IMG/VR virus record: IMGVR_UViG_3300022752_000239
Coordinates: 1-32,998 of that record
From: a virus
DNA: 32,998 nt
Direction: 5' to 3' (one strand)
In this document: in pieces, positions 5,369 through 27,706 of the stretch
Layout of the letters: every line of letters begins with the position of its first letter
Position numbering within the stretch: position 1 is the first letter of the stretch
The notes under the pieces: model-generated
Told to the model about the DNA's origin: nothing
Database searches by the model: none
Seen by the model: only the letters and a program-made list of their open reading frames with translations
Position numbers and translations under genes: made by a program

Positions 5369-7936
5369 ATGCCCACGCAGATAAAATCAACAAATATTCA
5401 AGCAGGATCAATTACTACAGACAAATTAAATGTAGTGGGTATTTCAGCCAGTGGAGTTAGTACATCAACTAACATAGCGGGCGGACTTGCTAACCAGATC
5501 CTATATCAACAGTCCGCAGGAAATACCAATTTTATTTCGGCTCCAATAACACCAACAGTTTATCTGCAATGGAATGGCACTAGTTTTACTTGGGCCAGTT
5601 CTACTGGACCCCAGGGACCTCAGGGACCTCAGGGACCCAGTGGGGCTAATGGCACTATAGGCGTAAATGGATCAACCGGGCCACAGGGACCACAGGGACC
5701 ACAAGGCCCCCAGGGAGTTCAAGGACTATTGGGACCACAGGGACCACAGGGACCACAAGGTGGTCAAGGTCCTCAGGGATCTACAGGAGCTACCGGGCCT
5801 AGAGGACCCCAGGGACCCCAGGGGCCCAGCGGAGCGCAGGGTCAGACAGGTCCTCAAGGACCGCAGGGTACATCTGGAGGTCCAGGAGCTACAGGAGCCA
5901 CCGGTCCCACTGGACCTTCAGGGTCTCAAGGTGAAACAGGAGCCTTCGGTGGTGCTAGTTTTTACTATACATTCAGTACCAGTACTGTTGCTAGCAATCC
6001 TGGATCTGGATTTATAAAATTTAACACCAGTACCGTGGCCAATATTACCACTCTTTATATCAATAAATTTGATGGAGACGGTAATGATATCAGTAATTTT
6101 ATAGGTACTCTAGACGGCAGCGAGAGCACTATTAATGGTTATGCCAAAATAGCCGGAGCTACAACCACAACCAATTTTATTTTCCTATCAGTTACCGCTG
6201 ACAGTACCAATAACATCAGTTATTTTAACCTACCTGTGGGCTATCTTTCCGGTACCGTTAATAATTTTAGCAATGGTGAGGTTGTGGTCATCACCTTTGC
6301 CACAAATGGCAATAGAGGTGATTCTGGGCCCCAGGGTCCCCAGGGACCATCTGGACCCAGCGTGATCGGACCACAGGGACCACAGGGCGTACTTGGTCCA
6401 CAAGGCCCCCAGGGACCGCGTGGAGCAGACGGTACCAGTGTGACTCTTGTTGGCACTGCCACTACCTATGTGAGTTTACCTGGCTATCCTAATTCATATG
6501 GAGGTGCCGTGGGTGACGGCTATCTGACCGCCGACGGACATTTATGGGTTTGGAGTGGTTCTTCGTGGTTTGATGCAGGTACGCTACAGGGTCCACAGGG
6601 AGCCACAGGCGCCACTGGACCACAGGGACCCCAGGGGGTAACTGGTCCACAGGGCCCGCAGGGCCCACAGGGAGCCCTAGGCTTCACTGGTCCACAGGGA
6701 CCTAGAGGACCTCAGGGTGTGCAGGGAAATATTGGGCCGCAGGGACCAATGGGTCCACAGGGACCCAGCGGAGCCAGCGTAACAGGGCCACAGGGACCTA
6801 CAGGACCTCAAGGTGCAACAGGTCCTCAAGGACCCCAAGGCGCCACAGGAGCGACTGGACCGCAGGGTCCGCAGGGTCCACAAGGTAGTACGGGACCACA
6901 GGGACCACAGGGACCTCAAGGCCCCCAGGGACCACAGGGAATCACAGGGCCTCAGGGACCTCAAGGTCCCCAGGGTGTGTTTGGACCTCAAGGTCCTCAA
7001 GGTCCTCAAGGCGCCACAGGAGCGACTGGTCCACAAGGTCCGCAGGGAGTTATTGGACCACAAGGTCCTCAGGGTGCCACAGGAGCGACTGGACCACAAG
7101 GTCCTCAGGGTGCCACAGGAGCGACTGGACCACAAGGTCCTCAGGGCCCCCAAGGACCACAAGGCGCGACTGGACCACAAGGACCAACTGGGCCTATAGG
7201 TGGAACATCAGGGCAAATTCTTTATAACAATGCAGGAAATACTGGAGGTTTTGGAAACTGGAATGGAACTAATGTAACAGTGGCTGGTCCTATCTTTGCT
7301 ACAAAGTTTCTAGGCACAGTTACTCAAAGCGGTAGTGGTGACAGCAATGTACAGGTACAAATGCAGGCAGACTATAGCGGTTGGGTAGATTTATTTGCAG
7401 GCTCACCAGGTAGTGCCAACGGATGGGGAGTATTTTGGGCAGGAAATCAAAGTGCTGCCTATGGAACTAACGGAACAGGTGGTCCGGGTAATATTTTCAG
7501 TAACTCAACTAATCCTAATGAACTGGTATTTTTAGGCAATGGTAGAACAGATTGGGCCATGCAGTTATATGATGGTAGAGTATGGCAGCGCAGTCATTTC
7601 TATTGTGCCGGTGATGTGGTCACTAATTACTCTGATCTACGCCTAAAAGACGTGATAGGTCCTATAGAAAACGCTGTTGAAAAAATCAAGCTAATAGATG
7701 CTTTTTATTATAAACCAAATCAAAAGGCTAAAGATCTAGGTCAAGATGATAAAGTTAAAATTGGCGTTAGTGCTCAAAGTGTAAAGACAGTGTTACCTGA
7801 AGTAGTGCAGCCTAGTCCTGTAGATATTAATTACGATACTGTTCAATATGAACGTCTAGTTCCTCTATTGATAGCAGCAATTAAAGAACAACAACGGGAA
7901 ATTGACGAGCTGAAAAAACAAGTAGGGAGTAAGTAA
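5369..7936 (+). CDS. Large collagen-like tail fibre with C-terminal S74 chaperone domain
   Basis: The 855-residue fibre has this order: N-terminal module (1-80, [20 protein letters not shown] to FTWASSTG) shared with the fibre at 28444; Gly-X-Y block; a beta module of about 120 residues ([15 protein letters not shown] to [14 protein letters not shown]) shared with the fibre at 17450; a short Gly-X-Y block; a beta module ending [14 protein letters not shown]; a Gly-X-Y block of about 200 residues; a spacer; and an S74 intramolecular chaperone domain from about 751. The S74 Ser-Lys pair is visible as S755 and K760 in SDLRLK, and the domain ends in a helix ([15 protein letters not shown]). S74 domains help fibre trimers fold and then usually cleave themselves off, so the mature fibre should lack roughly the last 100 residues. 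The stop overlaps the next ATG. Confidence 0.93.
7073..7144 (+). repeat. Perfect 36-bp tandem duplication in a collagen-like gene
   Basis: Two identical 36-base units (7073-7108 and 7109-7144) begin ggtgccacaggagcgactgg and encode [13 protein letters not shown] diverged third copy precedes them at 7012-7047. Confidence 0.85.
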
Positions 7937-9108
7937 TGGCTTTTAAAGATAATAACACTAGTATTTTTGATACCAACACCGTTGCCATACCCACTCTTGC
8001 TACTGCTAGCCTACCTGCAAGTCCTGTGAAAGGACAGATTGTTTATAATACAACAAATCGTAGAATGGAAATCTATGACAGTGATGCTGCGGTTTGGAAA
8101 AGTGCTGAAGATGTAAGACGCAGTCAATTTCTAACTAGGCAGACCATAACTACAGGTTATGTGATGGGTGGATACCAGAGTGGAAGTCCATGGCGTAATG
8201 TAAATCGTATGGTACATGCTACAGATGTGTGTACAAATTTAGGAGACCTGCTGTCATACGCCGGTGCCTATACCAGTGGAGTTGCTAATTTAAGTAAAGG
8301 TTTTTTGTGGTCAACTGACAATAGCTTTCCCGGAAGTAGCGCCCAAACAAGTGCGTTTAATCTTTCAACCGAAACTACAGCCGGAACTAATACAAATTGG
8401 AATTGTAAAGAAGGCGGTGAAGATCGTGGAACAATTTTTAATCAATTAGAATGGGCTTTTATTATTGGAGGAGCAAGCAAAACTTCTATAGATCAGTTTA
8501 ATATGACCACAGAGGTTATGCAGCAACAGGTAAGCCCTAGTACTTTTAACTTTACTTCTAGTCTTGGATACTACGACACCACAGGCACAGCGACATTATC
8601 CGGTGAAGAACATGGTTATGCCTATGGGAGTAACGGTTCTGTAAAAGTAATTTTCGCCACAGGTGTGATGTATCAGGCTGCATCTGGTACTTTTGATTGG
8701 AGACCAACCAACAATCCTCCAGCTTCTGGGCATTTTATTAGAATGCAGACACCTGAAAAAGGAGGTGGTGATTTAACAACCTATGCTCAACAAAAAGGGA
8801 TTAATAGTAAAATAGGAAGAGGATGGTTTGGTAACGAAGGCACCTATAACGGTGGCTATAATTTAAGAAGAATTAATTTTACAACAGATTTAAGTTTAGG
8901 AACCGTGTCTAAACCCATAGGAAACACCGGAGAAGAAAATTTTGATATGGGGCAGACAAAACAATATATGCTAGGTTGTTATGACGGGTCTCAGAATAAT
9001 AGAACTTGGCGTTTTACCTATTCTACTGAATCTGGCAGTGAATTAGGAGCAGGATCAACAAGGACCGGAGTCCCTGGCGGTAGTTCTGGTCATTGCGTAT
9101 GGAAATAA
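7936..9108 (+). CDS. Tandem fibre paralogue 1
   Basis: The 390-residue protein is the first of three tandem paralogues. It has an N-terminal TATASLPASPVKGQIVYNTT module (about residues 20-55), then a beta-rich body with TTGYVMGGYQSGSPWRNVNR, TNLGDLLSYAGAYTSG, KGFLWSTDNSFPGSS and GEENFDMGQ, ending RTGVPGGSSGHCVWK. The repeated strand-turn motifs (GYVMGGY, WAFIIGG, GFLWSTDN) suggest a propeller-like or repeated beta fold, but I do not recognise a named family. It follows the S74 fibre on a TAATG overlap, so it is probably co-translated and structural, perhaps a fibre tip or a receptor-binding variant. It differs most from the other two copies in the middle (about residues 150-270). Confidence 0.85.
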   Translation: MAFKDNNTSIFDTNTVAIPTLATASLPASPVKGQIVYNTTNRRMEIYDSDAAVWKSAEDVRRSQFLTRQTITTGYVMGGYQSGSPWRNVNRMVHATDVCTNLGDLLSYAGAYTSGVANLSKGFLWSTDNSFPGSSAQTSAFNLSTETTAGTNTNWNCKEGGEDRGTIFNQLEWAFIIGGASKTSIDQFNMTTEVMQQQVSPSTFNFTSSLGYYDTTGTATLSGEEHGYAYGSNGSVKVIFATGVMYQAASGTFDWRPTNNPPASGHFIRMQTPEKGGGDLTTYAQQKGINSKIGRGWFGNEGTYNGGYNLRRINFTTDLSLGTVSKPIGNTGEENFDMGQTKQYMLGCYDGSQNNRTWRFTYSTESGSELGAGSTRTGVPGGSSGHCVWK

Positions 9109-9112
9109 TCTT

Positions 9113-10219
9113 ATGACATTTTATGTTAATAACACATCAATTGGTGATTTAAATGGTCTGCAAGTACCTGTGCTTACCACTGCTACCAGACCATCAAGTC
9201 CAGTAGATGGGCAGGTCATCTATAATACCACACTAAATCGTTTGGAAATATATGACAGTGGTCTGTGGAAACTGGTAACAGATACAGAAACTGGACAGGG
9301 TAGGCCCTTCTTATATAGACAAATTATTACCCATGGCTATGTTATGGGTGGTTACAAAGATAGTAGCCCATGGCGCAATGTGAATAGACTAAATCATAGC
9401 ACAGATGTATGTACAAACTTGGGAGATTTACTGTCCTATGCTGGCGCCTATACCAAAGGTTGCTGTAATCTTGTCAAAGGTTTCTTGTGGTCAACTGACA
9501 ACAGCTGGCCAGGGGCAAGTGTGACAACCAGTGCCTTTCACTTGGCCACAGAAACTACCGCAGGTTTGAATACAAACTGGAACATGACTGTGGCTAGAGG
9601 TGATATGGCCAACATCTGGAAAGAATTTTACTATGCTTGGACTGTAGGAGGTTCTGGCGGGTCCAATGCCATGGATGTTTTCAATATGACCACAGAAGTA
9701 ATGAGCGCCTCTGGGGTGAACAGCACAATTAACGATACGGGCAGCGGCGGTACAAACGGACTAGGTTCTTTTAGTGACGAATTAAAAGCATTTGCTTGGA
9801 ATGACAGCACTGGTAATAAGTTTACGTTTGCCACAGGAACAGGTTCTGCTATAACAGATAACGGAACTTCTGGAGTAAGAGGAGTTCATGGTCAACAAAA
9901 AGGAATTAGTTCTAAGGTAGGCAAGGGATATGGAGGCGGTAACGGCAGTTGGAATAGCGGGTACACACTAAGAAGATGGAATTTGACTACAGAAACTTCT
10001 GCAGGAGCAGATGTAAATAAGCCTGTGGGTAACTGCGGCGAAGAGAATTTTGACATGGGACAAGATCGTCAATACATGCATGGCTGTTACGACGGGGCAC
10101 AAAACAATAGAGGTTGGAAATTTACCTACGCCACAGACAGTGGTGTGGAGCTTGGAGCAGGATCTGTTAGAACTGGAGTACCGGGTGGTAGTTCGGGCGC
10201 CTGTGTCTGGAAAGGTTGA
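9113..10219 (+). CDS. Tandem fibre paralogue 2
   Basis: The 368-residue second copy has the TTATRPSSPVDGQVIYNTT module near the N-terminus, then HGYVMGGYKDSSPWRNVNR, TNLGDLLSYAGAYTKG, KGFLWSTDNSWPGASV, GEENFDMGQ and the ending GVPGGSSGACVWKG. Conserved blocks alternate with a divergent centre (about residues 170-260), the pattern expected when a scaffold is kept and surface loops change. It starts four bases after copy 1 and abuts copy 3. The Cys in the last six residues (ACVWKG) is shared by all three copies. The molecular function is unknown; a virion-structural role is inferred from context. Confidence 0.85.
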   Translation: MTFYVNNTSIGDLNGLQVPVLTTATRPSSPVDGQVIYNTTLNRLEIYDSGLWKLVTDTETGQGRPFLYRQIITHGYVMGGYKDSSPWRNVNRLNHSTDVCTNLGDLLSYAGAYTKGCCNLVKGFLWSTDNSWPGASVTTSAFHLATETTAGLNTNWNMTVARGDMANIWKEFYYAWTVGGSGGSNAMDVFNMTTEVMSASGVNSTINDTGSGGTNGLGSFSDELKAFAWNDSTGNKFTFATGTGSAITDNGTSGVRGVHGQQKGISSKVGKGYGGGNGSWNSGYTLRRWNLTTETSAGADVNKPVGNCGEENFDMGQDRQYMHGCYDGAQNNRGWKFTYATDSGVELGAGSVRTGVPGGSSGACVWKG

Positions 10220-10224
10220 TAGAT

Positions 10225-11301
10225 ATGGCTTTTTATTATAATACCACAAAGTATGCCGACTATAATGGTATTAATGTTCCTACATTTACCAGTACAACTA
10301 GACCAGCTAGCCCTGTTAATGGGCAGGTTATTTACAACAGCACTTCTGGGGTTATGGAGATTTATGTTGATGGATTGTGGAAACCTATAGATAATATTCA
10401 AACCCCTAATCCCTTTTTATATAGACAGGTTATTACCACGGGATACGTTATGGGTGGATATAAAGATTCAAGCCCATGGAAAAACGTTAATCGTATGGTA
10501 CATGCTACAGATGTTATGACTAATCTTGGAGATTTACTGTCATACGCCGGTGCCTATACCAGTGGATTTTGTACAACCACAAAAGGCTTTTTGTGGTCGA
10601 CTGACAATAGCTGGCCTGGGACCAGTGTGACAACTAGCGCATTTAATCTTGCCACAGAAACTACAGCAGGAACCAATGCAAATTGGAATATGACTGTGAG
10701 TAGAAACGACGTAGGTACATTTTTTAAAGAAACATCCTACGCTTGGCTGGTAGGTGGTGGCAATTCGGGTATAGATTTTTTCAATGGTACAACAGAAACA
10801 ATGAGCGCTACAGGACAAACTAGCATGAGTGGGGATAGTATGCAAAGCGGTGTGGCCACAATAAGCGACGAACTAAAAGCATTTGCCTGGGGTGATGCCA
10901 CTCATAAATATAGTTTCGCAAGCGGTAGTACGATGACAGTGAATACATCTGGTACAGTAAGTGGTAGTGGTAGCCAACAAAAAGGTATAAATTCAAAACA
11001 TAATAGAGGTTATTGTGGGAACGAAGGCACCTATAATAATGGTTATAACCTGCGTAGATGGGACCTAACCACAGAAACTAACCTTGGAACTACTGGAAAA
11101 CCTGTAGGCGACAGCGGGGAAGAGAATTTCGATATGGGACAGTTCCATCAATATATGATGGGATGCTATACCGCAGCAGGACAAAATAATAGAGGATGGA
11201 GATTTAGTTATGTTTCAGAAACCGGATATGAACTTGGATCAGGTTCAGTCAGAACAGGTGTTCCAGGAGGAAGTTCGGGACATTGTGTGTGGAAAGGTTA
11301 G
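10225..11301 (+). CDS. Tandem fibre paralogue 3
   Basis: I start this copy at the ATG at 10225 (MAFYYNTTKYADYNGINV, 358 residues), because it aligns with the starts of copies 1 and 2 ([18 protein letters not shown]). A TTG at 10216 would add only three residues. It has the TTRPASPVNGQVIYNST module, TTGYVMGGYKDSSPWKNVNR, TNLGDLLSYAGAYTSG, KGFLWSTDNSWPGTSV, GEENFDMGQ and GVPGGSSGHCVWKG. The codons for Pro-Gly-Gly near the end spell AGGAGG (11265-11270), whereas the other two copies use different synonyms. This may supply the ribosome binding site of the next gene. Same unknown fold and presumed fibre role as its siblings. Confidence 0.85.
   Translation: MAFYYNTTKYADYNGINVPTFTSTTRPASPVNGQVIYNSTSGVMEIYVDGLWKPIDNIQTPNPFLYRQVITTGYVMGGYKDSSPWKNVNRMVHATDVMTNLGDLLSYAGAYTSGFCTTTKGFLWSTDNSWPGTSVTTSAFNLATETTAGTNANWNMTVSRNDVGTFFKETSYAWLVGGGNSGIDFFNGTTETMSATGQTSMSGDSMQSGVATISDELKAFAWGDATHKYSFASGSTMTVNTSGTVSGSGSQQKGINSKHNRGYCGNEGTYNNGYNLRRWDLTTETNLGTTGKPVGDSGEENFDMGQFHQYMMGCYTAAGQNNRGWRFSYVSETGYELGSGSVRTGVPGGSSGHCVWKG
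11265..11270 (+). promoter_or_regulatory. Shine-Dalgarno-like AGGAGG inside paralogue 3
   Basis: The six bases encode part of Pro-Gly-Gly in the upstream gene and match the ribosome binding consensus. The sibling genes encode the same residues as ctggcggt and cgggtggt, without the consensus. This supports a start for the downstream gene near 11282-11285. Confidence 0.45.
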
Positions 11302-12109
11302 AATACCAACAGAAAAGTTTAGTTATTCGGCTAATGCCCTTACCACGAACACAGCATTTTTGTCAGAAGAACAACGAGAATTAATAGCACAATCATTAAA
11401 TCAAAAATGGGTTATACCAGAGTTTAAGGTTAAAAACTTTATTGGTAATGCTCAAATTACGCCATATGCCAAAATAAAACAATATCTATTAGAACTTAAC
11501 ACGAGAGAAAGCGCCGTAGAGGCAATGGAATATGAAGTTCAAAAAATTGCATTTGAAATTGAAATACAGCAGGAACTTAAAGCAGAAACATCAAGTCCAG
11601 CACAGAAAAAACTTCACGATTTAGAAATTGTTAAACTAGAAAGAGTTCAACGTAAAAGTATTGTTAGATTACGTGACTCCTATATAGAAAGAGATATGTA
11701 CTTAAAATTAATTGAAGAATTTAATAATACTCCCGAAGCCTATACAGAAGATGGACGTAGATTAATGGATCTAATTGATATACCAGAAGAAGCGGAAAAG
11801 TTAGAAAGACATTATTGGACTCTACGTTTAGCCAAACAAACTGCTTTAGATATGATTGCTTATGGTAGAGCGGGTGTTGGTAATATGGAAGCGGTCAGTA
11901 TGTTAGAAACAGATCAACAGTATGAAGTGATGCAGATAGCCTGTGATTATTTTGTAAGGAATGAAATGCGTACAAATAGTCTATTAAGTAATATAAATGA
12001 AAACATTCAAAAATTAGGAGCAGCAGCTCCGGTAACAGAGCTTTCTAGGCAGTTGTATCTACAAAATGAAGGGGATAAACATGTACCTACTATTCAAATC
12101 AGTAAGTGA
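11285..12109 (+). CDS. Helical protein of unknown function next to fibre genes
   Basis: The frame is open from well inside the upstream gene. I prefer the GTG at 11285 (274 residues) because it overlaps the previous stop by only 17 bases and follows AGGAGG at 11265-11270. The spacing of 14 bases is long, so the start is uncertain; ATGs at 11210 or 11228 would overlap by over 70 bases. The protein is rich in Glu, Lys, Leu and Ile, strongly helical, with likely coiled-coil stretches (VEAMEYEVQKIAFEIEIQQE, KKLHDLEIVKLERVQRKS). It has no collagen repeats, no signal peptide and no membrane helix. I recognise no family. With the next gene it may form a fibre-assembly pair, inferred from context. 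Confidence 0.72.
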   Translation: MCGKVRIPTEKFSYSANALTTNTAFLSEEQRELIAQSLNQKWVIPEFKVKNFIGNAQITPYAKIKQYLLELNTRESAVEAMEYEVQKIAFEIEIQQELKAETSSPAQKKLHDLEIVKLERVQRKSIVRLRDSYIERDMYLKLIEEFNNTPEAYTEDGRRLMDLIDIPEEAEKLERHYWTLRLAKQTALDMIAYGRAGVGNMEAVSMLETDQQYEVMQIACDYFVRNEMRTNSLLSNINENIQKLGAAAPVTELSRQLYLQNEGDKHVPTIQISK

Positions 12110-12809
12110 TCAAGAATTAGGATTGATCAAAAGAGCAGGTCAATATACAGATTATGTAGTTGGATATCTAGATGATAGTGTGAAGGATATTGCTAAATTT
12201 GAACATCTTAACGCCACGGTGTTAGATGAAGAAACGGCCATGGGCTGGAAATTTGCTAGTAATTATAGTGGCTATCTCAGTGTAAGATCAAACACAGCAG
12301 CAAATGAACAGTTAAATTTTATCATAAGTAGTGACGAACCTGAATCAGTTAAAGTTAAATATTATCTTACGGATCAGGACAAGGCTAATGGTGCAGCTTT
12401 TATGAAGGCACTGTTAAGGAAAATATTAGACGATGTATATGATAAGAGATTCGCACAAATCAACTTATCTGTTTCAAAGTTAGAAGAAGTGAGTTGGGCT
12501 CAGCAGCGTTCAGAAGCAGAAGCCTATTCTGCAGATAACACAGCACCCACACCTTTATTGTCAAGTCTAGCACAGAGTAGAGGAATAACCTTATCAGAGA
12601 TGGTAACTCGTGTGCTTACTGCTATTACGAATTACAATCAAGAAGTTGCCACTCTATTAGCCAGAAAGCAGATGATTGAAACCGAAATTAAATCATGTGC
12701 AGATATTCAAGCATTAAATATTGTCATACATAATAGATTTGGTTATAACATGCCTGCTAAACAACAACAGGATCTAGGAATAACCACTTCAAGCACCTAT
12801 GACTTGTAA
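12081..12809 (+). CDS. Possible tail-fibre assembly helper (DUF4376-like)
   Basis: I choose the ATG at 12081 (MYLLFKSVSDQELG, 242 residues), with aagggg six bases upstream, over the ATG at 12066. The N-terminal half is mixed (YLDDSVKDIAKFEHLNATVL). The C-terminal half (about residues 135-235) has a pattern like DUF4376-type fibre-associated proteins: EVSWAQQRSEAEAY, TPLLSSLAQSRGITLSEMV, then a helix with LLARKQMIETEIKSC and a closing FGYNMPAKQQQ. Such domains often sit beside phage tail fibres and are thought to help assembly. The family resemblance is from memory and moderate. The gene overlaps the upstream stop by 29 bases and the downstream ATG by one base, so it is part of a tight unit. 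Confidence 0.75.
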   Translation: MYLLFKSVSDQELGLIKRAGQYTDYVVGYLDDSVKDIAKFEHLNATVLDEETAMGWKFASNYSGYLSVRSNTAANEQLNFIISSDEPESVKVKYYLTDQDKANGAAFMKALLRKILDDVYDKRFAQINLSVSKLEEVSWAQQRSEAEAYSADNTAPTPLLSSLAQSRGITLSEMVTRVLTAITNYNQEVATLLARKQMIETEIKSCADIQALNIVIHNRFGYNMPAKQQQDLGITTSSTYDL

Positions 12810-14434
12810 TGAAAATTTTTAGCGTACCAATAAACCCAAAATTACCGCCTTTACAATTTAATCTTTTTATAGCCTTCTTAGAAGATTACAAAGATTGGAT
12901 CTATGATCTATACTTTACTAGTAGAATGCCCCCATTCGTTCAAGACGCAATGGGCGATGTATTTGTACAGGGAGAAATAGGCGCCATTGAAATGGCTGTA
13001 GAAATACAAGAAAAACTAGGCATACCTATCAGTGCTACTTTTAATAATACTCTTGTAAGACCTGATCAACGCAATCTAGATCTGTTCATACACAATTTTA
13101 GGCAACTTTATGCTGCCGGTATAAGATCTGCTACCATACCGCATACACATTGGCTGATGACCAAACAGATACAGACAGAATTTCCAGAATTGTTTATTAA
13201 AAATACTATTTTAAGGAATCCTAATACTGCCAACGAAGTAGCAAATCTAGCAAAAGCAGGATATCATTATGTAAATCTAGATAGAGATCTCATGCGAGAT
13301 AGAGACCTACTGGAAAAAATGCTACGAGTAAAACAGAAGTATGGAATAAAATTAAGTTTATTGGCCAATGAAGGTTGTCTAGGCGCCTGCCCCGTAATGG
13401 ACGAGCACTTCCATTTTAATAATTCTAGATTTGGCACAGCACCGCAATATTTTAATGATCCTATTAGCAGAGTAAGTTGTCCTAAATGGGATAAAGAAGA
13501 TCCTAGTACACCTCTAAAAACTGCCAACTTGACACCATGGAGAGAAGACTGGATTGAACTATTACAGTATGTAGATGTAATAAAAATGCATGGCAGAGAA
13601 AGTTCTACTAAATTATTTGAAACTATCAGCATTATCCAGAACTTTGCCAATGATAAAGAAATATTATTTGATACATTTAATGAATACTTAGATGATACTA
13701 ATCTAGTAGATAAACCAATACATGCGTGGCGTAAGAAGATTAAAAATTGTAAGTTTGACTGCTGGGATTGCAATTTCTGTGACAAGATATATGAAGCTAA
13801 ATCACAGATTAAAACTAACCCATTAGTGTTGGCAGTGACCAAGGAACTGGTAGACAGTGTGAACCTGCCCTTAGAAATAACCACTATAGGATTGACCAGT
13901 AGTAGAGTACAGCAGTTATTAAATTCTTTATCCAATCATTGTAAGAGTTATTTAGAAGTGGGATGTGCTCTAGGAGCTACCGCAGCAGCAGTGGCTATGA
14001 ATCCCAATATTCAAGTTCATTTTGTGGACAATTGGAGTGAAACGCTTCAACCCGAAACTGGACTCTTTGAAATGCCCAGTGGAGATAAGGATTTGTTTTT
14101 AGATAATATACGTCGACCTGATGCTATTATCATTGACAGCGATTTTCTACAAGCAGATAAATCACAAATTCATGCTGTTGATTTGTTTTTCTATGATGGT
14201 CCACATGACCAAGAATCTGTTAGGCAGGCTGTGTTATACTATAAAGATTGTCTGGCTAAATCCGCGATTCTAATATTTGATGACGCAAATTGGGATGGAG
14301 TAGTAACAGGAGCTAACCAAGGCATAGCAGAATCTGGACTTATTCCTATATATAGTAAAATGATGCTCAATCAAGTTGAAAGTCCCGATCAATGGTGGAA
14401 TGGGTTATATATAGTTGTGGTGAATAATGGCTAA
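12809..14434 (+). CDS. U32-like (Fe-S?) protein fused to a SAM methyltransferase
   Basis: This 541-residue protein has two parts. Residues about 1-335 look like a TIM-barrel U32-family protein: MGDVFVQGEIGAIEMAVEIQ, ISATFNNT, a RNPNTANEVANLAKAG segment, then ANEGCLGACPVMDEHFHFNN. Cysteines at 190, 194, 224, 314, 318, 321 and 324 could hold an Fe-S cluster, as known for U32 RNA- and ubiquinone-hydroxylation proteins. Residues about 375-541 look like a class I SAM methyltransferase: motif I YLEVGCALGATAAAV, acidic FVDN after strand 2, and LFFYDGPHDQES as in macrocin-O-methyltransferase-like enzymes. It starts on a TAATG overlap and overlaps the following oxygenase gene by eight bases. The pairing suggests a modification enzyme; the substrate is unknown. 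U32 members include proteins once called collagenases, which is suggestive next to collagen-like fibres but not proof. Confidence 0.72.
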   Translation: MKIFSVPINPKLPPLQFNLFIAFLEDYKDWIYDLYFTSRMPPFVQDAMGDVFVQGEIGAIEMAVEIQEKLGIPISATFNNTLVRPDQRNLDLFIHNFRQLYAAGIRSATIPHTHWLMTKQIQTEFPELFIKNTILRNPNTANEVANLAKAGYHYVNLDRDLMRDRDLLEKMLRVKQKYGIKLSLLANEGCLGACPVMDEHFHFNNSRFGTAPQYFNDPISRVSCPKWDKEDPSTPLKTANLTPWREDWIELLQYVDVIKMHGRESSTKLFETISIIQNFANDKEILFDTFNEYLDDTNLVDKPIHAWRKKIKNCKFDCWDCNFCDKIYEAKSQIKTNPLVLAVTKELVDSVNLPLEITTIGLTSSRVQQLLNSLSNHCKSYLEVGCALGATAAAVAMNPNIQVHFVDNWSETLQPETGLFEMPSGDKDLFLDNIRRPDAIIIDSDFLQADKSQIHAVDLFFYDGPHDQESVRQAVLYYKDCLAKSAILIFDDANWDGVVTGANQGIAESGLIPIYSKMMLNQVESPDQWWNGLYIVVVNNG

Positions 14435-15041
14435 GATATTACCAGTTGTACACGCAGATATTTTTTATAAACCTAATGTTGGTTCAGAAGTTCAACGCAA
14501 AGATTTGTCAGATCAAGCATGGAACGAGTATCACAGTAATAAAGAAACCCTAGCTTGGACTAATCGTGGCTGCTGGCGCAGTTATTTTCAGTATAAAAAT
14601 ATATCATGGTTAATAGATGAGGTTAGAGATAGTGTTAATCAAGCAGGACATCATTATCAGAAATTAGATCCTATATATCCTAAAAAGGCAGCATCCTTTA
14701 CCGGGAGCGAAATAAAGTATTGGACAAATATCAATAAACCCGGTGGTAAAAATGCTCTACATGATCACAAGTTATGGCATTATGTGGCCGTGTATTATAT
14801 AGATGCTGCAGGCACTGGCGACATTGTTTGGTATAATCCTATGAACCTTACAGAAGGTTGTAATCCCTACGCTCCGTTTGTGAGTCCTATAACCTTTAGT
14901 CCAAAAAATGGTGACCTATTGATATGGCCAGCTTGGTTACCTCATGAAGTTGAACACAATTTTTCAGATCATCATAGGGTCAATATTGCTATGAACATTA
15001 GATTTCAAGCACCTATGAGCATTGAAGAACTGGAATATTAA
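14427..15041 (+). CDS. 2OG-Fe(II) oxygenase 1
   Basis: The 204-residue protein fits the small phage 2OG-Fe(II) oxygenase group (Pfam '2OG-FeII_Oxy_5' type). The core double-stranded beta helix is marked by ALHDHKLWHYVAVYYI (candidate iron ligands H112, D113, H114), GDLLIWPAWLPHEVEHN (distal H173) and HRVNIAMNIRF (R184, which would bind 2-oxoglutarate). Family members couple decarboxylation of 2-oxoglutarate to hydroxylation of a protein, nucleic acid or small molecule. It overlaps the U32/methyltransferase gene by eight bases and the next gene as TAATG, so it belongs to one operon-like cassette. The substrate is unknown; fibre prolines are a hypothesis because of the surrounding collagen-like genes. 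Confidence 0.85.
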   Translation: MAKILPVVHADIFYKPNVGSEVQRKDLSDQAWNEYHSNKETLAWTNRGCWRSYFQYKNISWLIDEVRDSVNQAGHHYQKLDPIYPKKAASFTGSEIKYWTNINKPGGKNALHDHKLWHYVAVYYIDAAGTGDIVWYNPMNLTEGCNPYAPFVSPITFSPKNGDLLIWPAWLPHEVEHNFSDHHRVNIAMNIRFQAPMSIEELEY

Positions 15042-15766
15042 TGGATAAAATTATTTTCTTTTCGTCAGTTTTAGGACTGGCAGAAACCTTTCCCATTCGC
15101 CCTGCCAAAGAAGTTGTACCAAAATGGGCCTATGTGGCCAGACAGGATTATATTAAAAATAAAGATAAAAAGGAAATGCACATCTATAAGTGCCCCGGTA
15201 TCTTTGATACATTTGGGTCTGGTTATATAATATCTGCTTGGCATGACATTGAATTAGAAACGGATGGATCAAAATTTAGGCTCACAATACCAGATAAACA
15301 ACTAAATGAATTATTGGAAAAGGAAACTCTACAAGAACAAACATGGAATGCTAATATAGTCAAATTTATTCCAAAACCTCCTTGGGCCGTTAAGAGTATA
15401 TTAAAAATTAATACCCCATGGCATATACTGGCACCCAAAGGTGTAAAGTTTTTAATCATACCTTTGCCTTATCCAGATGATTTCCAATTTCAGAGTTGTA
15501 TAGGCATACTTGATCCGGGGGTAAGTTCTGAATTAAATGTACAGGGCTACTGGAATGATACTGGCACAGGACCCCGCGTTATTAAGGCAGGAACGCCGTT
15601 GGCTCAGGTAATTCCAATTACAGAAAAAAATTACGCCCACATTGTGAGAGATAAAACCGATTCAGATTCTAAATGGCTTCAAAAAAGGAAATTTTTAAAC
15701 TTTTTTAGTTTCATATTAAATAGAAACAAAATTAAAGAATCCTATGAAAGACACAAACGTGATTGA
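15041..15766 (+). CDS. DUF6065-like protein of unknown function
   Basis: This 241-residue soluble protein lies between two oxygenase genes. It begins with a segment on pairing with a 'P-x-W' motif (PAKEVVPKWAYVARQDYI) and contains GSGYIISAWHDIELETDGS, then NTPWHILAPKGVKFLIIPLP, a GILDPGVSSELNVQGYW strand set and GTPLAQVIPI. This order resembles DUF6065, a presumed beta-barrel fold found in phage and bacteria near oxygenases; the assignment is from memory and moderate. The last 35 residues are basic and extended (KWLQKRKFLNFFSFILNRNK). Its stop overlaps the next gene by 22 bases. If the cassette modifies proteins or metabolites, this could be the substrate-binding or partner subunit, which is inference. 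Confidence 0.7.
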   Translation: MDKIIFFSSVLGLAETFPIRPAKEVVPKWAYVARQDYIKNKDKKEMHIYKCPGIFDTFGSGYIISAWHDIELETDGSKFRLTIPDKQLNELLEKETLQEQTWNANIVKFIPKPPWAVKSILKINTPWHILAPKGVKFLIIPLPYPDDFQFQSCIGILDPGVSSELNVQGYWNDTGTGPRVIKAGTPLAQVIPITEKNYAHIVRDKTDSDSKWLQKRKFLNFFSFILNRNKIKESYERHKRD

Positions 15767-16343
15767 TTCATTATTTCCTACACCAATTTTTATTCACGAT
15801 TTCAAAGGTGATACATTAAATAAAATTCAAGATGAAATAGATATAGCCTTACCTGAAATCGTGACATATAGAAAAAAATCAACGGATGCAGGGCAGGTAG
15901 ATAGTACATTTAGGTTTAATGATGATCAATACGTCAGTGACATCATTAAATTTAAATTAGATCACATAAAAAATATATTCACCGAGGCTGTTCATGCCTA
16001 TGCTTATTCAATTAAGTATAAGGGTCCATTTTTATCACTAGATGGATCCTGGTTTAATTTTTTTGAAAAGGATGGCTTTTACTATGATCATAATCATCCA
16101 GGTGTAAAGGTAGCAGGGGTGTATTATTATCTAACCAACGGAAAAGATGGTAAATTAAGATTTCAAAATCCTAACCCACATATGTTTTTTGGCAACTGGC
16201 CAGCAGATGGTATGGATGAAGAATGTATATATTATCCGCCAATTCAAGGTAGGTTGATGCTGTGGCCTGCTTGGATGATTCATAGAGTAGAATTTAATCA
16301 CAGTGATCAAACACGTATAAGTATAGGCGTTACTTTTAAATAG
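15744..16343 (+). CDS. 2OG-Fe(II) oxygenase 2
   Basis: This 199-residue second oxygenase has FPTPIFIHDF near the N-terminus, a start typical of this family. Catalytic features are YYDHNHPGVKVAGVYYYL (D115, H116, H118), RLMLWPAWMIHRVEFNHS (distal H180) and TRISIGVTF (R191). It is only distantly similar to oxygenase 1, apart from the shared W-P-A-W turn before the distal His, so it may act on a different substrate or site. The start overlaps the preceding gene by 22 bases and the end is ten bases before the GTG of a membrane protein gene. Phage enzymes of this family are common in marine T4-like phages, but most have no known substrate. Confidence 0.87.
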   Translation: MKDTNVIDSLFPTPIFIHDFKGDTLNKIQDEIDIALPEIVTYRKKSTDAGQVDSTFRFNDDQYVSDIIKFKLDHIKNIFTEAVHAYAYSIKYKGPFLSLDGSWFNFFEKDGFYYDHNHPGVKVAGVYYYLTNGKDGKLRFQNPNPHMFFGNWPADGMDEECIYYPPIQGRLMLWPAWMIHRVEFNHSDQTRISIGVTFK

Positions 16344-16352
16344 GATGGTACC

Positions 16353-17399
16353 GTGGAATTATTAAAATTTACAAAAGGATTAGAATATCTTTGGCTAGTT
16401 TTCTTCATAATGCTGGTAGCTGGCATTGCCAAAGAACGCAACTTATTCATGCCAGTGTATTCATATATAAAAAGTTCATTCAAAAGCAACAGAATTGTAT
16501 TATTTCTAATCAGTGCTGTAAGTGGTATATTGCCTATTGAAGGTAGGGTCACTGTCAGTGCTGGGGTACTGGATACAATTACGCATCGAGGCTGTGGTCA
16601 CGATCATGGGAGACAAAAGATGGGGGTGGTAGACTATCTGTCAACTCATCATTACTATCTGTGGAGTCCACTGGAAAAGACTGTGATTATTCCTATGGCC
16701 ACATTTGGTCTAACCTATACAGCATGGTTAGACATGATATGGCCACTGTTGGCTGTGACAGCGGCATTCATATTTTATTATATTTTTTATCGAGTTAAAG
16801 AAGAAGAAATTAACATTGAAACCAGCGAATTTAAAATAAGTGCTGTATTACGTAATGTACTGCCTTTTTTTCTTGCTATAGGAACATATATCTATGTAGG
16901 TGGAGAACGACATGTATTTGCTATTTTTGGATCACTTGCTCTGTATTATGTTTTTCTAACTCAAACTTGGGACTACAAAAAACTATTGGGCTATGTTAAT
17001 TGGGAAGTGTTGATAACCGTGGCCCTAGTAATCGTGCTGGGTAATTATTTTAAGAGTCAAGAAGCTGTTATAAATGCCTATATCAAAGGACTAGGTGTTG
17101 ATATTACAACATTTACAGGATTGCTGTTTATTTCAGCTGTAGGTTTAACAGCTAGTTTTGCCATGGGATCCAGTGGTAAATTTATAGCATTGGCTGTACT
17201 AATGAGCACTGTGTTTGGTAAAGAGTATTTCCTATGGTTTTTTGTGGTAGACTATGTAGGATATCTTTTAAGCCCCACTCATAAATGTGTTATGGTTGGT
17301 AATAGATATTTTGGGACACCATTAACCACCTACTATTCAGCGTTGGGCCTATGGAGCACTTTGCTTCTATTACTAGCAGGGTTTATAACTTTTAGTTAA
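16353..17399 (+). CDS. Polytopic membrane protein, DUF401-like permease
   Basis: The 348-residue protein has about nine or ten hydrophobic segments (roughly 12-26, 47-62, 128-147, 165-182, 187-204, 217-231, 253-275, 278-298, 332-347). Starts with GTG after tagga at 16341-16345, seven bases away. The C-terminal signature YLLSPTHKCVMVGNRYF (304-320) resembles the S-P-x-H-x-C...Y-F block of DUF401 integral membrane proteins; SAGVLDTI and THHYYLWSPLEKTVI are other conserved-looking blocks. A His/Cys-rich loop (HRGCGHDHGRQK, residues 78-89) could bind metal. A permease in the middle of a tail-fibre cluster is odd; it would be placed in the host membrane. Transport substrate unknown. It might feed or tune the neighbouring modification enzymes or alter the host envelope, both speculative. 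Confidence 0.75.
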   Translation: MELLKFTKGLEYLWLVFFIMLVAGIAKERNLFMPVYSYIKSSFKSNRIVLFLISAVSGILPIEGRVTVSAGVLDTITHRGCGHDHGRQKMGVVDYLSTHHYYLWSPLEKTVIIPMATFGLTYTAWLDMIWPLLAVTAAFIFYYIFYRVKEEEINIETSEFKISAVLRNVLPFFLAIGTYIYVGGERHVFAIFGSLALYYVFLTQTWDYKKLLGYVNWEVLITVALVIVLGNYFKSQEAVINAYIKGLGVDITTFTGLLFISAVGLTASFAMGSSGKFIALAVLMSTVFGKEYFLWFFVVDYVGYLLSPTHKCVMVGNRYFGTPLTTYYSALGLWSTLLLLLAGFITFS

Positions 17400-17449: not shown

Positions 17450-19462
17450 ATGGCTTTTCCTACCTCACCCACTGATAATCAACAAGCAACCGTAGCAGGA
17501 ATTAGCTATACCTATAGTACAGCCACAAATAGCTGGACTAGAGTAAGTATAGAGCAGGCTATACCCTGGCAGAGAAAAACTGGTAATTACACAGCTGTCA
17601 ACAATGATAGACTGATCTGTGATACCACATCGGGGTCATTTAATGTAAGTTTACCTGCTAGTCCACGAACTGGTTATTATGTGATAATTACAGATGGAGG
17701 ACAGTTTGCAGTCAATAATCTAGTTGTGGTGCGTAACGGATCTACCATAGAAGGTATCAGCGATAACATATCTCTTGACATAACAGGTGCTACATTTGAA
17801 TTTATTTTTGACGGATCAACTTGGCAAATTACTTCTACAGTCGGTCCACGTGGTCCCAGCGGTCCATTGCCTACACTAAGTGCCATTGGTGAGAGTATAT
17901 TACCATCTGCTACATTGACCTATGATTTAGGTAGTCCTACTTACCAATGGCGCAGTCTATATGTGGGCACATCTACTATCTACATCGGTGATTATGCACT
18001 GGGTGTGAGTACTGCTGGTTTTATTACCTTACAAAATACTGTAGATCCGGCATCCGAACCAACACCAGTTGTAGGCCCTCAAGGCCCCCAAGGACCAAGT
18101 GGTCCCAGTGTAACAGGTTCAACTGGACCTCAAGGACCTCAAGGACCCAGCGGTGCTAACGGCACAATAGGAGTCAATGGATCAACTGGCCCACAAGGTC
18201 CCCAGGGCTCAACTGGACCTCAAGGACCTCAGGGAGTTAATGGACCGCAAGGACCCCAAGGTCCACAAGGTCCCCAGGGCAGTACGGGACCCCAAGGTCC
18301 ACAAGGTCCCCAGGGATCGCAGGGACTAGCTGGACCACAAGGACCACAAGGTCCTTCCGGACCAGAAGGCACATTTGGTGGAGCTGCTTTTCGTTATCTC
18401 TACTCCACTACCAGTACCAGTAACCAAAACCCCGGCAGTGGTAAGATTGCGTTTAATTCACTGGCCCTCACCACTGCCACCCTGCTGTATATTAATCTCG
18501 CAGACAATGACGCAGTTGATGTAACATCATTTTTACAGACCATTGATGATTCAAGCAGTAATATCAAGGGTCATTTCAGTGTGGCAGACAAGAACAATCC
18601 CAATACCTATGTGCTGTTTTCTATCATAGGCACACACACTGAATATGCCAATTACTTCCGTGTGCCTATAAGCTATCTCAGCGGTACAACAACCTTGACC
18701 AATAATCTCAATACTGTGGTAACTTTTGCACGTACAGGAGACAAAGGTGACACTGGGCCACAGGGCCCGCAGGGAGTCGTAGGACCACAGGGGCCTCAGG
18801 GACCACAGGGGTCGCAGGGAGTAGCAGGTCCGCAGGGACCACAGGGTCCGCAGGGTGTCAGTGGACCACAGGGTCCGCAAGGAGCCACAGGACCTCAAGG
18901 ACCACAGGGGCCTCAGGGACCACAGGGACCTCAAGGTGCAACAGGACCACAGGGTCCGCAAGGAGCCACAGGACCTCAAGGACCACAGGGGCCTCAAGGT
19001 GCAACAGGACCACAGGGACCTCAAGGCCCTGGTAGTCCGTTAGCTACTATCTTTACTATAACAAATATTACAGCAGTCACTAGTACAAACACAGGTGCCC
19101 TACAGGTAGCAGGTGGCGTTGGCATTGGTGGTGGTATCTTTATAGGTGGCACTATGACTGCTACATGGATCGTAGAAACTAGTAGTCTAGATCTTAAAGA
19201 AAATATCATGCCCATAACCGATGTAATGAACATTGTGAGTAATCTGCAAGCATACACCTATGATCGTAAAGATGGTTCTAGAAAAAATGAACCGGGCTTA
19301 ATCGCAGAAGAAGTAGATAAGGTATTACCAAATATTGTAAATTACGATCAATATGGTAAACCTATGGGAATTAGCTATACTAAATTAAGTGTATATCTAC
19401 TAGAGGCAGTGAAATTGCTCAAAGAGGAAATAGCCGAGCTTAAAAACTCAAGAGGGGCTTAA
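17450..19462 (+). CDS. Collagen-like tail fibre with S74 chaperone domain
   Basis: The 670-residue fibre begins with an N-terminal module [17 protein letters not shown] and a beta domain ([20 protein letters not shown] to [15 protein letters not shown]) resembling fibre-shaft start domains. Next comes a spacer with [20 protein letters not shown], a Gly-X-Y block holding [19 protein letters not shown], a beta module ([16 protein letters not shown] to [12 protein letters not shown]) homologous to that in the fibre at 5369, and a second Gly-X-Y block of about 100 residues. [15 protein letters not shown] turn leads into an S74 domain. Its Ser-Lys pair is S578/K583 in SSLDLK. The final helix ([18 protein letters not shown]) is typical of S74 tails. 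The domain should drive trimer folding and then self-cleave. This is probably a side fibre or alternative tail fibre. Confidence 0.92.
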
Positions 19463-22455: not shown

Positions 22456-24051
22456 ATGCCTACTTCAGTTCGTAATCTAATATCGTCATATCTTCCGTCT
22501 GGACCACAGGGCAACCAAGGTAACACAGGACCACAAGGACCACAAGGACCCCAAGGACCACAGGGCAACCAAGGTAACACAGGACCACAGGGAAATCAGG
22601 GCAATCAAGGACCACAAGGACCTAGCGGACCACAAGGTCCATCAGGACCAAGTGGGCCACAAGGTAACCAAGGACCACAAGGCCCAAGTGGACCAAGTGG
22701 GCCACAGGGCAATCAAGGCAATCAAGGACCGCAGGGACCGCAGGGACCAAGTGGACCAAGCGGCCCATCAGGACCACAGGGAAATCAGGGCAATCAAGGA
22801 CCACAAGGACCTAGCGGACCACAAGGTCCATCAGGACCAAGTGGGCCACAAGGTAACCAAGGACCACAAGGCCCAAGTGGACCCCAAGGGCCACAGGGCA
22901 ATCAAGGCAATCAAGGACCACAAGGACCTAGCGGACCACAAGGACCACAGGGCAACCAAGGTAACACAGGACCACAAGGACCACAGGGCAACCAAGGTCC
23001 ACAAGGACCCCAAGGACCACAGGGCAACCAAGGTAACACAGGACCACAAGGACCACAGGGAAATCAGGGCAATCAAGGACCACAAGGCAACCAAGGTCCA
23101 CAAGGACCCCAAGGACCACAAGGACCTAGCGGACCACAAGGCAACCAAGGTCCACAAGGACCCCAAGGTAACACAGGACCACAAGGCAACCAAGGACCAC
23201 AAGGACCTAGCGGACCACAAGGCAACCAAGGTCCACAAGGACCCCAAGGTCCACAAGGACCACAGGGCAACCAAGGTAACACAGGACCACAAGGACCACA
23301 GGGAAATCAGGGCAACCAAGGTCCACAAGGTCCACAAGGACCACAGGGCAACCAAGGTAACACAGGACCACAGGGCAACCAAGGTCCACAAGGACCAAGT
23401 GGTCCGTCAGGACCTGCTGCTGGTGGTGGTTTTTCTCAAGCTCAAGTATTTACTTCTTCTGGCACTTTTACTGTCCCATCTTCCGGTAAATTCAAAGTAA
23501 CAATTATTGGGGGAGGTGGTGGAGGTCCAAGGGGCAGTTCCAGCAGTTATTTTTGTGGACAGGGGGGTGGTAGTGCAGGGACCGTTATTAAGTGGTATAC
23601 AGGCGCTACTTCAGGCGCGACCGCTACAGTTACTATAGGTTCTGGTGGTGCAGGAGCGACTACAGACAATACTGCTGGTTCAAACGGAGGTAATTCTACA
23701 TTTGCACTTTCGGGGTTTACTACGCTGACTGCTGGTGGTGGAAATGGTGGCTATCCTTCAATTCCTCCTGTTAAAAATAATGGGTCAGCGTCAGGTGGGG
23801 ATATAAATATTAATGGGCAAAACGGTATGGGGCCAGCAATACGATCTGATGGCGGAGGAAATGCTCTTGCTGCTACATTAGGCGGCAGCACTCCTTTAGG
23901 TCTTGGTGCAGCATGGAACTACAACGCAAGCGTTGAAGTTAGTACAAATTATCCTGCTTCAGGATACGGCGCTGGTGGTGGTTCTGGATCTGGTATATTT
24001 GGGACTAATGGTGGGGCAGGAACCGGCGGCATTTGTATTGTGGAGTACTAA
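22456..24051 (+). CDS. Collagen-like fibre with Gly-Asn-Gln repeats and glycine-rich tip
   Basis: The 531-residue fibre has a very short N-terminus ([15 protein letters not shown]) followed at once by about 305 residues of Gly-X-Y in which GPQ, GNQ, GNT and GPS triplets alternate. Asn-rich triplets ([12 protein letters not shown]) distinguish it from the other fibres in the window. A C-terminal domain of about 200 residues starts [20 protein letters not shown] and runs through [15 protein letters not shown] to [13 protein letters not shown]; it is a glycine-rich domain of the same kind as those at 20208 and 25118, probably the receptor-binding tip. Long perfect DNA repeats inside the shaft make its length prone to change. 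The gene is preceded by a TAAATA box and followed one base later by a small fibre-assembly-like gene. Confidence 0.9.
22580..22694 (+). repeat. 115-bp perfect direct repeat, copy 1
   Basis: Bases 22580-22694 are identical to 22769-22883, read base by base. The offset is 189 bases (63 codons), so recombination between copies would delete or duplicate 63 residues of collagen-like shaft in frame. Confidence 0.9.
22769..22883 (+). repeat. 115-bp perfect direct repeat, copy 2
   Basis: Second copy of the repeat at 22580-22694. The flanking bases differ on both sides (22579 a / 22768 t; 22695 a / 22884 c), which sets the limits. Such a long synonymous identity implies a recent duplication or ongoing gene conversion. 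Confidence 0.9.
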
Positions 24052-26838: not shown

Positions 26839-27117
26839 GAATATACTAATCAACCTAAAATTTATCGCATGGTGGGCATAGACACTGCCATGCATCTACT
26901 ACGTCCAGGTGCCAGCTGGGAAATATCTAATACCACATTTACTAGATGGGATGATCCCCGCCCCTGTCCTAGTTGGGAAGAAGTTGCAGAAACTGTGGAA
27001 AAGATTAGACAGTTTGAAGATAGTATACAGACTATTTGGCTACCCGAACAGATAGCGGAAATTGAACGTAATAATCCCGGAATAAGAGAACAATGGGAAC
27101 ATGATGCAGCTACATAA
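26836..27117 (+). CDS. Small protein of unknown function (fibre-associated)
   Basis: The 93-residue protein from 26836 lacks a ribosome binding site and its ATG lies in an inverted repeat. The alternative ATG at 26869 (MVGIDTAMHLLRPGASWEIS, 82 residues) is a reasonable rival start. It contains GIDTAMHLLRPGASWEISNT, WDDPRPCPSWEEVAETVEKI and a helical tail (LPEQIAEIERNNPGIREQWE). The P-S-W-E-E-V segment followed by a helix resembles small fibre-chaperone-like proteins from phages. It overlaps the third oxygenase gene by 17 bases. Its role is unproven. Confidence 0.7.
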   Translation: MEYTNQPKIYRMVGIDTAMHLLRPGASWEISNTTFTRWDDPRPCPSWEEVAETVEKIRQFEDSIQTIWLPEQIAEIERNNPGIREQWEHDAAT

Positions 27118-27706
27118 CCTTTTTCCAACACCCATTGGTTTTTTTGATCTTGATAGAGACTTTACTGAACTAGAGAAAAAATTTATAGATAAGCAAGAAA
27201 CCAGAACCAATATGGGCAACACTACCAGTATAGATAACTATGTTCTTAAGAATAAAAACCTATCTGGATTAAGACAATTCTTTGATGATTCTTTACAGGC
27301 GTATCTACGAGCCACCCATAATCCAAAACAGGACATTAAACTACGCATCACACAGAGTTGGATAAACTATACCGCACCCGGCCAATTTCACCATAAACAT
27401 GCTCATCCCAACAGTTTTATCAGCGGTGTTTTTTATATACAGACAGATCCCACTAAAGATCGTATATTTTTCTATAAAGATGCATATCAACAACTTAAAT
27501 TTGAAATAGCAGAATGGAATCAGTATAATTCGGAAAGTTGGTGGTTTGAAGCACCGCCCAAAAGATTAATACTGTTTCCTAGTTCATTGACACACATGGT
27601 AGAAACTACACTAAAAGACATTGAAACTAGAATCAGTTTAAGTTTTAACACATTCCCCCAAGGCCTATTGGGCATAAATCAGGACCTTACCGAGCTAGTC
27701 CTATAA
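27101..27706 (+). CDS. 2OG-Fe(II) oxygenase 3
   Basis: The 201-residue oxygenase of the same family as those at 14427 and 15744 starts MMQLHNLFPTPIGFFDLD, as is typical of this group. Candidate catalytic parts are QFHHKHAHPNSFISGVFYI (H100 and H102), RLILFPSSLTHMVETT (distal H165) and TRISLSFNTF (R177). The H-P-N-S-x-x-S-G-V-x-Y block is the closest of the three to the consensus of this family. It stands more than 10 kb from the other two, next to small fibre-associated genes. Either Met (27101 or 27104) could be the start. The substrate is unknown; another protein-hydroxylation or nucleotide-related role is equally possible. Confidence 0.88.
   Translation: MMQLHNLFPTPIGFFDLDRDFTELEKKFIDKQETRTNMGNTTSIDNYVLKNKNLSGLRQFFDDSLQAYLRATHNPKQDIKLRITQSWINYTAPGQFHHKHAHPNSFISGVFYIQTDPTKDRIFFYKDAYQQLKFEIAEWNQYNSESWWFEAPPKRLILFPSSLTHMVETTLKDIETRISLSFNTFPQGLLGINQDLTELVL

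Follow-up and report, generated by a model that had tools for sequence, protein, structure and literature searches.

The 32,998-nucleotide IMG/VR fragment IMGVR_UViG_3300022752_000239 (33 kb; hereafter the window) carries a cassette of five consecutive plus-strand genes downstream of a group of fibre-like genes. The first cassette gene encodes a fusion of a U32-fold domain with an O-methyltransferase domain (phrog_1458; hereafter the fusion). It is followed by genes for a 2-oxoglutarate (2OG)-Fe(II) oxygenase (oxygenase a), a dUTPase-fold protein (gene 3), a second 2OG-Fe(II) oxygenase (oxygenase b), and a DUF401 membrane protein. An earlier note on this DNA had read the cassette as a hydroxylation and methylation unit that interrupts a collagen-like fibre cluster and may modify the phage's own fibres. 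The open reading frames (ORFs) of the region are as follows.

7936 to 9108, plus strand: fibre-like protein, copy 1 (phrog_1417, E 2e-61), the module's upstream partner, with repeated GYVMGGY-type segments
9113 to 10219, plus strand: fibre-like protein, copy 2 (phrog_1417, E 3e-63), with an N-terminus common to other fibre-like ORFs (phrog_1325)
10216 to 11301, plus strand: fibre-like protein, copy 3 (phrog_1417, E 2e-59)
11210 to 12109, plus strand: conserved module gene phrog_1409 (E 2e-30), adjoining the module in most loci
12066 to 12809, plus strand: conserved module gene phrog_1604 (E 2e-34), 247 amino acids
12809 to 14434, plus strand: fusion of a U32-fold domain (residues ~1-330) and a COMT/TylF-class O-methyltransferase domain (residues ~338-541), 541 amino acids (phrog_1458, E 1e-151)
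14427 to 15041, plus strand: 2OG-Fe(II) oxygenase a (PF13759, phrog_81; Pfam E 8e-13)
15041 to 15766, plus strand: gene 3, a dUTPase-fold protein of 241 amino acids, weakly DUF6065-like (phrog_7084, E 2e-37)
15744 to 16343, plus strand: 2OG-Fe(II) oxygenase b (PF13759, phrog_81; Pfam E 2e-17)
16353 to 17399, plus strand: DUF401 membrane protein (PF04165, Pfam E 3e-10; phrog_14035, E 4e-83)
17450 to 19462, plus strand: collagen-like fibre with an S74 chaperone tail and 61 Gly-X-Y triplets, a neighbour outside the conserved module

All five cassette ORFs were confirmed at these positions. The tight overlaps previously described hold for the first four genes, with junctions of 8, 1, and 23 nucleotides, and not for the DUF401 gene, which starts with GTG after a gap of 9 nucleotides. 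The start of the fusion gene also shares 1 base with the stop of the preceding phrog_1604 gene. The cassette genes are real genes under purifying selection: among near relatives for which the synonymous rate (dS) could be estimated, the ratio of nonsynonymous to synonymous rates (dN/dS) was ~0.04-0.10 for the fusion, gene 3, and DUF401, and 0.23 for oxygenase b, the weakest purifying selection in the cassette, with dS saturated for oxygenase a. A promoter scan of the window returned matches near chance level, and terminator-like sites exceeded chance, but their positions do not delimit a unit. The module genes match those of T4-like cyanophages (Kyanoviridae), and the phage of the window, judged by these matches, is a relative of that family. 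The photosystem gene psbA, tried as a marker of a cyanobacterial host and dropped, was not found on 21 contigs related to the window, most of which are fragments; since the large relatives lack it, a cyanobacterial host of this lineage is unproven.

Structural models, built with AlphaFold2 on alignments of the window protein and its contig relatives, revealed the composite nature of the fusion (mean pLDDT 84.6). For residues ~1-270, the first-ranked Foldseek match was the U32 protein Mk0906 (PDB 5d88; E 4.8e-7), and the N-terminal part superposed on this structure with a Z score of 16.8 and a root mean square deviation of 3.1 over 225 of 247 amino acids. Residues ~350-541 matched O-methyltransferases, including TomG, COMT, MycF, SafC, and TrmR, at Z scores of 15-17, enzymes whose targets are hydroxyl groups. 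Methyltransf_24 scored above the Pfam cut-off for the window protein, and 44 of the 46 family members carry this domain. The U32-like/methyltransferase assignment made previously is thus upheld, at the level of fold for its first half. Seven cysteines are invariant in the family alignment (190, 194, 224, 314, 318, 321, and 324) and are candidate Fe-S ligands, although their spacing differs from that of the E. coli U32 paralogues. The contig alignment also contains an invariant KxHGRE segment and invariant D463, H466, D491, and D492, the last four of which may be equivalent to the metal ligands of COMT. Sequence-level membership in the U32 family was not obtained from PF01136, PDB, or profile comparisons: PF01136 was not matched by the window fusion at E values up to 1 and was absent among the 25 families listed for the 46 family members, and comparison with E. 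coli UbiU, UbiV, TrhP, and RlhA by hhalign gave E 0.011 and a probability of 3.9% against a thin four-sequence profile. The protein is therefore termed U32-fold rather than a U32 family member.

The fusion matches 123 phage records, all from cyanophages and all at less than 60% identity. The same protein in the same neighbourhood occurs as phrog_1458/T4-GC 354 in Syn33, Syn19, S-RIM2, and S-H25 (43-45% identical over the full length), where it is annotated as hypothetical; the isolates examined lack the pair of oxygenase a and the DUF6065-like gene at this position. The window's PHROG matches are likewise full-length for the fusion (phrog_1458), gene 3 (phrog_7084), and DUF401 (phrog_14035). 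In the searchable open-licence literature, no description of a U32-fold/O-methyltransferase fusion or of its module was found. A cellular origin was considered and rejected, as a genome scan gave only two contigs from metagenome-assembled genomes (MAGs), both carrying the same phage module. These contigs (L108 and L109) had been assigned to Dehalococcoidia and Euryarchaeota MAGs but, given the phage module on them, appear to be misbinned phage DNA; among 243 genomes from the phylum of one such MAG, only that one contig contained the module. The fusion model was also matched by the BFVD entry A0A3G3MCS7, a "Peptidase" of Escherichia phage OLB35 (E 2.5e-11; 17% identity over 269 amino acids). 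This match probably covers the U32-fold domain, and U32-like proteins may therefore extend beyond cyanophages.

Gene order and co-inheritance tie the fusion to the fibre region. The upstream order of phrog_1417 (one to three copies), phrog_1409, and phrog_1604 is nearly constant across the loci examined (several duplicate records were set aside) and leads into phrog_1458 in most of them. Of the complete cyanophage genomes compared, 21 in all, the same eight contain the fusion (phrog_1458), full-length phrog_1417 (E below 1e-130), and phrog_1604: S-H25, metaG-MbCM1, S-CAM4, Syn33, S-RIM2, Syn19, P-SSM4, and S-ShM2. An exact match of this kind has a probability of 1/203490 per pair if the genes are independent, a value uncorrected for shared ancestry. 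The module of S-ShM2 is complete as well, with ~6 kb of oxygenase-like and metabolic genes separating its parts. The earlier proposal of a hydroxylation and methylation unit tied to fibre genes gains support from this exact co-occurrence with phrog_1417 and phrog_1604. In the window, phrog_1417 is present as three tandem paralogues (7936-11301), whose GYVMGGY-type repeats recall kelch/propeller blades.

The genes downstream of the fusion are more variable. The order oxygenase a, gene 3, DUF401 follows the fusion in 27 loci, DUF401 stands directly after the fusion in 21 loci without the oxygenase pair, and the order of the window, with oxygenase b before DUF401, was seen in 2 other loci. In 52 cases, oxygenase a had gene 3 as its direct neighbour. 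These counts indicate that the core within this contig group consists of the fusion and DUF401, with the oxygenase a/gene 3 pair inserted between them. Oxygenase b has the narrowest distribution of the added genes, occupying its slot in close relatives of the window and nowhere else. DUF401 is present in three of the eight fusion-bearing complete genomes and lies away from the fusion in S-CAM4.

Our tentative interpretation, which we place first while giving it somewhat less than an even chance, is that these genes form a conserved T4-like phage module for hydroxylate-and-O-methylate tailoring of a virion adhesin, either on the protein or on its glycan. The module would comprise the fibre-like proteins of phrog_1417, a bifunctional enzyme, and two small genes that accompany it. 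In this enzyme, the U32-fold domain may introduce a hydroxyl group in an O2-independent reaction, after which the Mg-dependent O-methyltransferase domain may methylate that hydroxyl. The likeliest target would be an upstream-encoded component of the virion adhesin (phrog_1417, or the phrog_1409 and phrog_1604 proteins) or a glycan on it; the substrate is placed there because the fusion shares its inheritance with genes of the fibre region. Both 2OG oxygenases, gene 3 with its dUTPase fold, and DUF401 would be accessory components with faster turnover, contributing O2-dependent hydroxylations, a binding or nucleotide function, and membrane transport, respectively. A further version, in which the fusion hydroxylates and then O-methylates adhesin side chains while the oxygenases, and in relatives the halogenases, add further marks as a post-translational diversification of host-recognition proteins, is rather improbable. 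Several points weigh against adhesin tailoring. The co-occurrence over the 21 genomes carries no correction for phylogeny, and phrog_1417 is a putative virion protein, judged so by its position and by an N-terminus common to fibre-like ORFs. To our knowledge, the products of U32 proteins are on RNA and quinone, not on protein. The phrog_81 oxygenases, furthermore, are present in 20 of the 21 complete genomes and are also scattered elsewhere in them; the idea that they always cluster at this locus was weak overall (combined p 0.0016, driven by a few genomes without the fusion) and was not retained.

The closest functional precedent comes from B. subtilis, in which the U32 proteins TrhP1 and TrhP2 and the COMT-like TrmR, encoded in one operon, hydroxylate and then methylate tRNA U34 to form 5-methoxyuridine (PMC6599085). 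The phage enzyme repeats this pairing of a U32 hydroxylation factor with a COMT-like O-methyltransferase, but it is fused, lies beside fibre genes, and lacks detectable sequence membership in PF01136. This precedent also favours a different substrate, since the role chiefly associated with U32 proteins is prephenate-dependent hydroxylation of RNA, and TrhP and RlhA hydroxylate pyrimidines (PMC6599085). The fusion could accordingly be a one-polypeptide analogue of TrhP and TrmR that hydroxylates and O-methylates a tRNA or rRNA base, tuning translation during infection. TrmR is the best PDB sequence match of the fusion-family profile, only at E 0.03, and it is among the fold matches, but it does not stand out by fold among the O-methyltransferases. 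With a fusion strictly co-inherited with fibre-region genes, no tRNA gene in the window, and no clear signal either way from the hhalign comparison with the four E. coli paralogues, we consider RNA modification unlikely and rank it third, behind the tailoring of a sugar or small molecule and ahead of metabolic use of 2OG and collagen modification. Purifying selection acts on the fusion, 123 phage records carry it, and it is inherited together with genes of the fibre region; it has so far been left as hypothetical, and the consequences of the two readings differ. If adhesins are tailored, host recognition would draw on the chemistry of the fibres in addition to their sequence; if RNA is tailored, the fusion would give phages a compact means of modifying bases. 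Cultured Syn33, Syn19, and S-RIM2 carry the fusion gene and no collagen, and both readings are testable there.

Both cassette oxygenases scored above the cut-off for PF13759 (2OG-FeII_Oxy_5), and the HxH...H motif and arginine are conserved, being invariant in the alignment of oxygenase a, whose nearest solved relatives are 3bvc and 2rg4; the earlier calls of 2OG-Fe(II) oxygenases are therefore sound. A third PF13759 oxygenase lies outside the cassette at 27101-27706, between phrog_21526 and phrog_7759 genes, and is followed shortly by another collagen-like ORF. The oxygenase sets of the cyanophages syn9, S-SM1, and S-SCSM1 belong to the same phrog_81 class as those of the window, and in syn9 and S-SM1, whose fibre region also holds oxygenases, they lie close after tail-fibre genes. 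The window cassette differs from these sets: it has only two oxygenases, and these share a fixed operon with DUF401 and the fusion. Cyanophage 2OG oxygenases have been listed as auxiliary genes with a metabolic role or without assignment (PMC3037559, PMC9602691, PMC9964418), and a role through 2OG and NtcA has been proposed for cyanophages (Sullivan et al. 2010, PMC3037559). By extension, the cassette might consist of auxiliary metabolic genes whose oxygenases draw down 2OG and thereby affect NtcA signalling, which is consistent with the presence of multi-copy oxygenases in nearly all of the complete genomes. This scenario, however, leaves the fusion, its fibre partners, and the fixed order unexplained, and it presupposes a cyanobacterial host for a lineage whose large relatives have no detected psbA; we regard it as improbable, more so than RNA modification.

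Gene 3 had been labelled DUF6065-like, a label that found little backing: it has no Pfam match, and only 1 of 28 relatives matched PF19541, at E 0.005, while 5 of 28 matched dUTPase (best E 3e-4). No papers on DUF6065 were found in the open-licence literature. The model of gene 3 (pLDDT 88.4) has the dUTPase fold, with the top 50 structures by Z score all being dUTPases (best Z 10.3 over 126 amino acids). It resembles the dUTPase superfamily in its conserved motif III-like LDP and motif IV-like AGTPLAQ, but lacks the Arg-Ser of motif II, where the position reads PLPY or variants. Ordinary dUTPase activity was rejected on the basis of this missing Arg-Ser, which suggests a repurposed dUTPase scaffold. 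The DUF401 call proved correct, at 40.3 bits against a Pfam cut-off of 24; the match covers most of the PF04165 profile, whereas the score for NCBIfam TIGR00529 is far under its cut-off (50.6 versus 378 bits). DUF401 relatives fall into a long form and a short form, the latter without a central segment.

These accessory genes bear on the possibility that the cassette decorates a deoxysugar or small metabolite destined for the host surface or the phage, with DUF401 as its possible transporter. The methyltransferase domain of the fusion resembles the sugar O-methyltransferases MycF, SpnH, and CalS11, a transporter-like membrane protein belongs to the unit, and in the fibre regions of syn9 and S-RIM44, two tryptophan halogenases lie beside the DUF6065-like gene 3 homologue and oxygenases. 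Family scans, however, recognized no glycosyltransferase or sugar-nucleotide gene in the window, and the fusion is co-inherited with fibre-region genes. Sugar or small-molecule tailoring is therefore the second-ranked reading, though a doubtful one.

Hydroxylation of the phage's collagen-like fibres by the cassette was the proposal that fared worst. Collagen-like ORFs do lie near the cassette in the window and in its closest relatives (L028, L030, L031, and L051), and oxygenase b, confined to part of that clade, may have a narrow clade-specific role on Gln, Asn, or X-Pro. The module is nevertheless regular in phages without collagen-like genes: no collagen match was found in the eight complete fusion-carrying genomes, three of which also carry DUF401. 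Its presence in so many collagen-free phages argues that it is not a collagen-modifying system. P-SSM2, in turn, has clear collagen repeats and no fusion. In the search for the gene order, most of the 27 loci with fusion, oxygenase a, gene 3, and DUF401 have no collagen in view, although these are fragments. When the comparison was confined to loci flanked on either side by 5 kb or more, collagen-like genes were no more frequent with an oxygenase than without: runs of at least eight Gly-X-Y triplets occurred in 3 of 22 loci that have one (the window; L028, whose fusion protein is 100% identical; and L031) and in 6 of 17 that do not. Prolyl-4-hydroxylase and lysyl hydroxylase of the animal type modify the Y position of collagen triplets. 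The 436 Gly-X-Y triplets of the window have proline at X in 276 cases, but at Y in only 2, and lysine at Y in 1, leaving the suggested prolyl and lysyl substrate nearly absent. The picture of a cassette interrupting a collagen cluster is thus reversed, with the cassette being the conserved part and the collagen-like ORFs lineage-specific additions. Collagen hydroxylation was accordingly rejected as the general function of the cassette in view of the collagen-free genomes, the locus counts, and the Y-position composition, and we consider this reading very unlikely. Among open-licence papers, none was found on phage collagen with a prolyl hydroxylase.

Three further features concern the collagen-like genes. 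The relative L018 (record G001, 166 kb) is collagen-rich, with frames of 1190 and 1541 amino acids; it carries the fusion and DUF401 without the oxygenase pair at this locus, a further point against collagen as the substrate, and has PF13759 genes elsewhere on the contig. In the window, a subtilase with recognizable D, H, and S active-site motifs (858-2498; Peptidase_S8, E 9e-27) lies between two collagen-like ORFs and is possibly a fibre-processing protease. An ORF of 531 amino acids at 22456-24051 contains 102 Gly-X-Y triplets without a break and, after them, a Gly-rich domain.

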